Assembly: GCA_944349655.1 (NCBI GenBank)
Contig: CALVNL010000005.1
Span: 1-60,446, forward strand
Length of the DNA stretch: 60,446 nucleotides
Direction: 5' to 3'
DNA from: an uncultured Clostridia bacterium
GTDB taxonomy: Bacteria > Bacillota > Clostridia > Christensenellales > DTU072
Shown here piece after piece: positions 51,472 to 54,447 of this stretch (position 1 is its first letter; the number at the start of each line of letters is the position of its first letter). The translations under genes were made by a program, and so were the position numbers. Under the pieces are notes generated by a model. The model was not told where the DNA came from. It was given only the letters and a program-made list of their open reading frames with translations, and ran no database searches.

Positions 51472-51499
51472 TTGACAAATTACAGTTAAGTGGTATACT
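51472..51499 (+). promoter_or_regulatory. Strong sigma-A promoter of the ncRNA gene
   Basis: A perfect TTGACA (51472-51477) and TATACT (51494-51499) are 16 bases apart. It is divergent from the metallophosphoesterase promoter. Transcription should begin near 51506. A direct repeat, GTGTAC, lies just downstream of the -10 box, around 51504-51519. Confidence 0.8.
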
Positions 51500-51505
51500 G
51501 AAAGT

Positions 51506-51733
51506 GTACTGAGGTGTACGTAATTGCAAGTTCTTTTTTAACCGCAAACTATAGAAAAGGGATTTCGGAGTCCGGACTCGGATGTCACGCCCTCGCCGAA
51601 AGGTATGGTCAGGGGAAGGCAGAAGATATGGCAGTTAACCCACCTGCGAAAGCGGGTTTTAATCCCTTGCGATTACGGCACGCTTGGTTCCTTGGTTAAA
51701 AAAAGACCGCCTTTCTGAAAAGGCGGTCTTTCC
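51506..51733 (+). ncRNA. Structured non-coding RNA of about 230 nt, class not assigned
   Basis: A strong promoter and an intrinsic terminator bracket about 230 bases with no convincing reading frame. A closing helix pairs GTAATTGCAAG (51520-51530) with CTTGCGATTAC (51666-51676), 11 bp, extended by GTG (51514-51516) with CAC (51679-51681). Stacked on it, GGGATT (51559-51564) pairs with AATCCC (51661-51666), sharing the C at 51666. Inside are CCTGC-GAAA-GCGGG (51643-51656), a GNRA hairpin; GAGT-CCGG-ACTC (51568-51579), with a self-complementary loop; and CCCT (51590-51593) with AGGG (51611-51614) enclosing GCC-GAAA-GGT. It is not tmRNA, RNase P or SRP RNA by eye. A raiA-type (ARRPOF) or 6S RNA is a candidate to test. 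Confidence 0.72.
51702..51731. terminator. Bidirectional terminator between the ncRNA and the YerC-like gene
   Basis: AAAGACCGCCTTT (51702-51714) and AAAGGCGGTCTTT (51719-51731) form a perfect 13-bp stem with a CTGA loop. T-rich sequence follows on the plus strand, and a TTTTTTAACC run on the minus strand. Confidence 0.9.
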
Positions 51734-51756: not shown

Positions 51757-52059
51757 TCAATCTTTTTTCTCCGCGTCGGAAAGACCTTTCAATACCGAAG
51801 CGTATCCGCCGCTTCCGCGATGAACGCAGTTGCTGACTCGGCTTAAGGTCGCGCTTGAGATATCGGTCTGCGCAATAATTTTCGCATAAGTCTGACCTTC
51901 GAGAAGCAATTTCGCCGCACGCAGTCTCTGTGCGAATTGTTCCAGTTCCGTTGCGGTAAAAATATCTTTGAAAAACGACTCGCAGGTCGCTTCGTCGGAA
52001 ATCGCCACCACGGCTTTTATCAGGTCATCCGTCATATCGCGGGTAATTTTTCCGTCCAT
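51757..52059 (-). CDS. TrpR-like DNA-binding protein, YerC/YecD family
   Basis: The 100-residue helical protein has a TrpR-type helix-turn-helix. The family segments are FTATELEQFAQRLRAAKLLLEGQTYAKI (helix region about 38-64) and TDISSATLSRVSNCVHRGSGGY (recognition helix, about 65-86). Members are transcription regulators of poorly known ligand. The gene is the last in the operon of the amino acid ABC transporter, 4 bases after the ATPase gene, so it is probably the local regulator and may bind the 18-bp palindrome in the operon promoter (54505-54522). That link is inferred. Confidence 0.9.
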   Translation of the reverse strand: MDGKITRDMTDDLIKAVVAISDEATCESFFKDIFTATELEQFAQRLRAAKLLLEGQTYAKIIAQTDISSATLSRVSNCVHRGSGGYASVLKGLSDAEKKD

Positions 52060-52960: not shown

Positions 52961-53608
52961 TTAACCTTTGTAAAAATCCATTTTCTTTTCCACCCAACTC
53001 AGCAACACGCTTAAAAGTCCGTTGAAAACCAGATAGAAAGCCCCGGCATAGAACAACGGCCAGACGATACCGTACACGTTGACTATGTCCTGAGAAAGTC
53101 TTGTCAGTTCCTCCACCGCAATTATTCTTGCAAGAGAGGTATCCTTGACTAAGGTTATGATTTCGTTACTCATAGGCGGAATTATCCGCTTTATGACCTG
53201 AAACAAAACTATCTTGAAAAAGATCTGAGTTTTGGTAAGTCCTAAAACTTGTCCCGCTTCGTACTGCCCTTTGGAAATACTTTCTATCCCGCCGCGATAA
53301 ATTTCCGAAAAATAACAAGCGTAATTTATTACGAACGCTATCAATACCGCGAGCATTCTGGAACTCATCGGAAGGTCGAAAACCAGTCCCGGGACATAAA
53401 ACACGGCGATAACCTGCAACATAAGAGGAGTGCCTCTTATCACCCAGACGAAAGCCTTGGTGACGTACTTCAACGGCAGGAATCTGCTCATAGACCCGAA
53501 GGCGATGATAAGCCCCAAAGGCAGGGCGAGTACCAGCGTCAGAATGAACAGCTGGCACGTCACCGCAAATCCTTTTAACAGTTCAAGCGTTACTTCTGCA
53601 AAACTCAT
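52961..53608 (-). CDS. Polar amino acid ABC transporter permease
   Basis: This 215-residue membrane subunit of the HisM/GlnP family has about five transmembrane helices. The coupling-helix (EAA) segment reads RIIPPMSNEIITLVKDTSLA. The N-terminal segment LELLKGFAVTCQLFILTL is typical, and the substrate pathway segment WVIRGTPLMLQ is present. It overlaps the binding-protein gene by one base and is followed 3 bases later by the ATPase gene. It has normal length. Confidence 0.95.
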   Translation of the reverse strand: MSFAEVTLELLKGFAVTCQLFILTLVLALPLGLIIAFGSMSRFLPLKYVTKAFVWVIRGTPLMLQVIAVFYVPGLVFDLPMSSRMLAVLIAFVINYACYFSEIYRGGIESISKGQYEAGQVLGLTKTQIFFKIVLFQVIKRIIPPMSNEIITLVKDTSLARIIAVEELTRLSQDIVNVYGIVWPLFYAGAFYLVFNGLLSVLLSWVEKKMDFYKG

Positions 53609-54447
53609 TATTTACTCTTGACTATGCAGCCTTCTCCTGCGGAACCGCTTTCGGCTACCAGCACCGCGTCGCTCCAGGTGGAGGTGTCGGAGGTGTATTT
53701 ATCGGCGTCTTCGCTTCTGATTATGGCAACCTGTTTGTTTTTCATATAAGGGATACTGATTTCCATAGCCGCAAGACGTTCGTCGGTAATGGTCATACCG
53801 TTCCAGATAAGGTCGATGGTCTTGGCTTCGAGTTCAACTTCTTTGGTTTCCCAGTCGATAAGCTGGAATTCCACTTCGAGTCCGAGGTCGGCAAAAACTT
53901 TCTTGGCGAGGTCGATGTCGAAACCGACGAGTTGTTCGTTGACTTTGTAAGCTATGGGCGCAAACAGAGTATATCCTACGATAACCTTACCCTTGTTGAT
54001 TATATATTGATAGTCGCTTTCGGTGGTGTCTACGGTAATTTCCTGCGTAACGTCCACGCAGATCTCGTTCTGCAATCCGTAAGCTGCCGCTATATCGTCC
54101 ATCATTCCGTTCTCGGTCAGAGCAATCAGTTGCTGATTGATGGCGTTTATTATCTGGCTTCCTTTTCTGCCTGCGATACCGTAATTTTCGTCGGCAAGCG
54201 TCAATCCTTCCACCAACGTAAGTTTATCGGCATATTCGCTGTTCTTGAGATAATACCCTGCCATAACCGAGTCCATAACGCCTATGTCGGCGGTTTTGGA
54301 ATTCAGTTCTGTAAGTATGTCTATCTGCGCCTTGGCAGGAACGTATTTTTTCCCGAAATTGAGTTCTTCTCCGCTGCAAGAAGCCAGCAAAACCACGCTT
54401 ACTACGCACAGCACTAAAGCGATAACGGTAACGATTGTCTTTTTCAT
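53608..54447 (-). CDS. Amino acid ABC transporter substrate-binding lipoprotein, circularly permuted
   Basis: The 279-residue lipoprotein (lipobox LASC, Cys24) has the parts of an SBP_bac_3 protein in swapped order. Residues about 36-125 match the usual C-terminal half: TADIGVMDSVMAGYYLK (52-68), ADENYGIAGRKG (85-96) and a closing helix AINQQLIALTENGMMDDI. Residues about 146-279 match the usual N-terminal half: GKVIVGYTLFAPIAY, VGFDIDLAKKVFADLGL (174-190), IDLIWNGMTITDERLA (211-226), and YMKNKQVAII, ending with ESGSAGEGC (266-274), which in normal proteins continues into the segment seen here at about 31. Together they cover one whole fold. The ligand is probably a polar amino acid. Confidence 0.9.
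   Translation of the reverse strand: MKKTIVTVIALVLCVVSVVLLASCSGEELNFGKKYVPAKAQIDILTELNSKTADIGVMDSVMAGYYLKNSEYADKLTLVEGLTLADENYGIAGRKGSQIINAINQQLIALTENGMMDDIAAAYGLQNEICVDVTQEITVDTTESDYQYIINKGKVIVGYTLFAPIAYKVNEQLVGFDIDLAKKVFADLGLEVEFQLIDWETKEVELEAKTIDLIWNGMTITDERLAAMEISIPYMKNKQVAIIRSEDADKYTSDTSTWSDAVLVAESGSAGEGCIVKSK

Follow-up and report, generated by a model that had tools for sequence, protein, structure and literature searches.

Organisation of the locus

The RNA gene lies on the forward strand of the window, a stretch of 60,446 nucleotides analysed at full length. It begins with a σA-type promoter (51472–51499), in which a −35 box TTGACA (51472–51477) is separated by a spacer of 16 nt from a −10 box TATACT (51494–51499). 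Homologues carry TTGAxx/TATAxT-like boxes upstream, in the same position. The host genome encodes RpoD/σA (401.8 bits in a profile search, cut-off 354). At G000:C1:84481-88378, several sigma-factor genes are clustered; they give weak matches to the RpoD model and are reminiscent of sporulation sigma factors. The RNA body of about 190 nt is placed at 51506–51695, with its ends positioned from the −10 box and the closing arm. The terminator hairpin (51702–51731) has a stem of 13 perfect base pairs (51702–51714 with 51719–51731) and symmetric A/T tails; it adds about 36 nt to the body. The consensus promoter and the perfect terminator are both as originally predicted, and the compact fold is present too, at about 190 nt in place of the predicted 230 nt. 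Judged from the sequence, promoter and terminator would make the RNA an independent transcription unit, as expected for 6S RNA. The original reading of a structured ncRNA gene that stands free of its neighbours and acts in trans is upheld.

The terminator is shared with a convergent YerC/TrpR-like gene on the minus strand (51757–52059). Given its symmetry and its position between convergent genes, it probably serves both sides, ending the RNA as well as the minus-strand ABC transporter gene cluster that contains yerC. It is 98% identical in the congener G009, where it occupies the same place beside yerC. The upstream neighbour of the RNA gene encodes a purple acid phosphatase. These two neighbours differ from those of the 6S RNA gene in B. 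subtilis.

Structure and identity of the RNA

A covariance model search with Rfam 15 matched RF00013 (6S/SsrS) at 51503–51694 on the plus strand with 56.3 bits (cut-off 46.4). The match covers the complete model (positions 1–187 of 187), has an E-value of 1.6e-8 for the 60-kb window and is the only one in the window to reach a curated gathering cut-off. A permissive scan of the RNA region (matches up to E = 10) found no other Rfam family near its own cut-off; raiA, Ms1, riboswitches and the remaining families were discarded as candidates on this basis. The original prediction had left the class unassigned, had named 6S and raiA as worth testing and had held that a significant match to a known class would mean that the RNA is not novel. 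The structured RNA gene stands and the 6S suggestion proved right; the unassigned class, and with it the novelty, does not survive the RF00013 match. We assign the gene as the single-copy 6S RNA (SsrS/BsrA-type) of an uncultured Christensenella-like Clostridia bacterium, with a probability of about 0.96. Searches of the same genome with RF00013 and with a clade model (below) found no second 6S RNA, in contrast to B. subtilis, which has two (6S-1 and 6S-2).

The region is more stable than dinucleotide shuffles (z = −2.76), and 1 of 200 shuffles was as good. The closing arm P1/P2 is formed by a 5′ strand (51508–51530) pairing with a 3′ strand (51666–51689). Within it, P2 is the predicted 11-bp helix, 51520–51530 with 51666–51676. 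P2 ends at the central bubble with G51530–C51666, and on the other side the apical arm (51559–51641) is closed by GGG (51559–51561) and CCC (51639–51641), so that the bubble is flanked by G–C pairs, as in 6S RNAs. The 3′ side of the bubble carries a hairpin, ACCUGC-GAAA-GCGGGU (51642–51657), whose 6 bp are nearly invariant (99.4% of cells paired). The two predicted GAAA loops are found at approximately 51598–51602 and at 51648–51651. In the free minimum computed with RNAfold, the 5′ strand of the bubble is closed as an A/U-rich hairpin rather than open. The anatomy is that of a Bacillus-type 6S RNA, with a P1/P2 arm, a G–C-flanked central bubble, a 3′-bubble hairpin and a probable pRNA template.

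The covariation among aligned homologues that the original prediction had proposed as a check is strong. In the model-aligned set of 26 sequences, 96.4% of the pair cells hold standard pairs, and 59 cells show double changes, compared with 13.5 ± 3.0 after shuffling and 4–20 with slid partners, where pairing falls to about 40–46%. Both sides have changed in 15 of 32 pairs. A plain MAFFT alignment made without reference to any structure agrees (61 double-change cells against 20.3). Compensatory changes occur in 8 of the 11 pairs of the closing helix, and the closing arm pairs better with its own strand than with strands of other species on average in all 26 sequences (−26.3 versus −17.5 kcal/mol). 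The three G–C pairs at the base of the apical arm are invariant (26/26) and its inner helices covary. The closing and apical arms, with the central bubble between them, are thus kept by compensatory change, as expected of a 6S RNA. The self-complementary CCGG loop, predicted as a possible dimer contact, exists as the palindrome GUCCGGAC (51570–51577); it is absent from the other aligned family members, congeners included, and the kissing-loop dimer is unsupported and was rejected.

The RNA resembles 6S-1 RNA of B. subtilis (bsrA, RF00013), a rod of about 190–200 nt with a P1/P2 closing arm, a central bubble and an apical arm. In 6S-1, the small 3′-bubble hairpin is present already in the free RNA (PMC12005410, PMC8876501), and the same is predicted here. 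E. coli 6S RNA (ssrS) belongs to the same Rfam family and has the same overall architecture, but it does not form its long 3′-bubble hairpin until pRNA has been made (PMC8876501); the RNA described here, by contrast, is predicted to contain a stable hairpin of 6 bp already in its free state.

Distribution and alternative readings

A DNA search located the RNA in most congeners at 70–79% identity. At E ≤ 1, RF00013 matched 32 of the 40 family genomes, and 13 of these scored over the cut-off; across the order, it matched 99 of 151 genomes at E ≤ 0.01, with relatives scoring up to 105 bits. The modest score in the window, together with several relatives of the same family below the cut-off, places the clade at the edge of the range of the RF00013 model. 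A clade covariance model was built from 19 family sequences. Of 38 family genomes, 34 contain one place each that this model finds; several of the 34 have an Rfam score far below the cut-off. The window RNA scores 159 bits with this model, a value that is not independent since the window sequence is in the training set; scores for genomes outside that set (for example G018, G020, G030 and G031) are independent. G009 gives no 6S match because the homology on its contig begins at the 6S terminator. In G002, yerC is present with no 6S RNA beside it; searches of this genome, G010 and G021 did not find 6S RNA, which may reflect incomplete assemblies or divergence. The metagenome-assembled contig CASDZI010000011.1 (L073:1-677) carries a phosphatase gene 95% identical to the one upstream of the 6S gene and, by eye, runs from inside the signal-peptide region directly into ATP-synthase subunit genes. 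It is probably a chimeric contig that conceals the 6S locus there.

Only in L021 and L031, the closest relatives examined, do the YerC and phosphatase neighbours adjoin the RNA; yerC is also present in G009. The RNA is therefore inherited independently of its neighbours, and conserved synteny was dropped as support for 6S.

The modest Rfam score and the low scores of some relatives could be taken to mean that the RNA is a novel structured class, raiA (ARRPOF)-like or other, which resembles 6S only as a rod with a bubble. We regard this as very unlikely, given a complete gathering-level match to RF00013, the absence of a second family close to its cut-off and the 105 bits reached on the same model by order relatives. 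raiA RNA (RF03072), at about 210 nt, is likewise a structured RNA of Clostridia, but the matches up to E = 10 in the region do not include it, so that this part of the original suggestion is not supported; its model also had no match elsewhere in the genome, in a search whose control genomes gave none either. Still less credible is a 6S-like RNA that, like Ms1 of Actinobacteria, binds core RNA polymerase rather than the σA holoenzyme. Ms1 and 6S RNA are related in structure (PMC9130861); however, the descriptions of Ms1 come from Actinobacteria, its model is missing from the region matches up to E = 10, and the G–C-flanked bubble and conserved template core are 6S features.

Translation of the 61-codon frame that starts at a GTG (51514–51699) into a small protein is equally hard to credit. 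In the window this frame has no interruption, and some relatives keep one frame free of stops, but 19 of the 25 homologues tested have every one of the three frames broken within the RNA; L021, the congener with the best DNA match, is one of the 19. The frame has no Pfam match and, by eye, no Shine–Dalgarno sequence, and evolution keeps the base pairs rather than the codons. As originally argued, the RNA is most likely untranslated.

The 6S class is already known, and the copy described here is new merely as an individual member; biologically, it adds no new principle. It brings into the documented range of 6S RNA an uncultured Clostridia family whose scores on the Rfam model lie close to the cut-off, and our alignments could improve that model. 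Among the papers searched, none mentions 6S RNA and Christensenella together.

Probable pRNA template and proposed mechanism

6S RNAs imitate an open promoter and bind the holoenzyme of the primary sigma factor, and are released when RNA polymerase copies a pRNA from the 5′ strand of the bubble (PMC8876501, PMC12005410). The probable template here is UUCUUUUUUAACCGCAAAC (51531–51549, plus strand), comprising the P2 flank and the 5′ central bubble; its UUUAACC-type core is conserved in the family. By inspection, this strand resembles the complement of the B. subtilis 6S-1 pRNA GUUCGGUCAAAACUA (PMC12005410), and the predicted pRNA, 5′-GUUUGCGGUUAAAA..., accordingly resembles that pRNA (PMC12005410, PMC8876501). 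Synthesis is predicted to start at C51549 or C51545, giving GUUUGCGG or GCGGUUAA as the putative 5′ end. When a 14-nt pRNA beginning with G at either 51549 or 51545 is added in silico, P2 opens and the RNA refolds.

By analogy with established 6S biology, the rod would mimic an open promoter, the σA holoenzyme would bind it and take the bubble into the active site, and many σA promoters would be dampened in stationary phase. When nutrients return, the polymerase would copy the short pRNA (GUUUGCGGUUAAAA...) from the 5′ bubble strand, which would unwind P2 and free the enzyme. A collapse helix AAGGGAUU/AAUCCCUU in the central bubble is strong in the window sequence (1% of shuffles as good), but in many relatives it is close to chance level (mean −5.2 versus −4.1 kcal/mol) and was rejected as a conserved element. 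The release route is for this reason uncertain, and we do not claim the helix for the clade, which differs in this from B. subtilis 6S-1. Some members far under the Rfam cut-off, a constitutive 3′-bubble hairpin and the variable collapse helix would be features of a diverged 6S subtype in the clade, with a pRNA start or release mechanism unlike that of either E. coli or B. subtilis; we consider such a subtype unlikely.

The minus-strand gene at 53608–54447 encodes the substrate-binding lipoprotein of an amino-acid ABC transporter and is circularly permuted relative to its family. The two halves of the protein sequence have changed places: residues 143–271 match residues 11–138 of PDB 3hv1 and residues 39–121 match 162–244. 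The permuted order is colinear in the congeners G009 (92%) and G004 (46%), and apparently also in G008, whereas G002 and G007 have the normal order (homologue loci L091 and L092 permuted; L093/L098 and L095/L099 normal). The permuted protein retains an N-terminal lipoprotein-type signal, and its gene adjoins its own permease and ATPase genes. This is a naturally occurring circular permutation inside a single genus, and is more unusual than the nearby 6S RNA gene.
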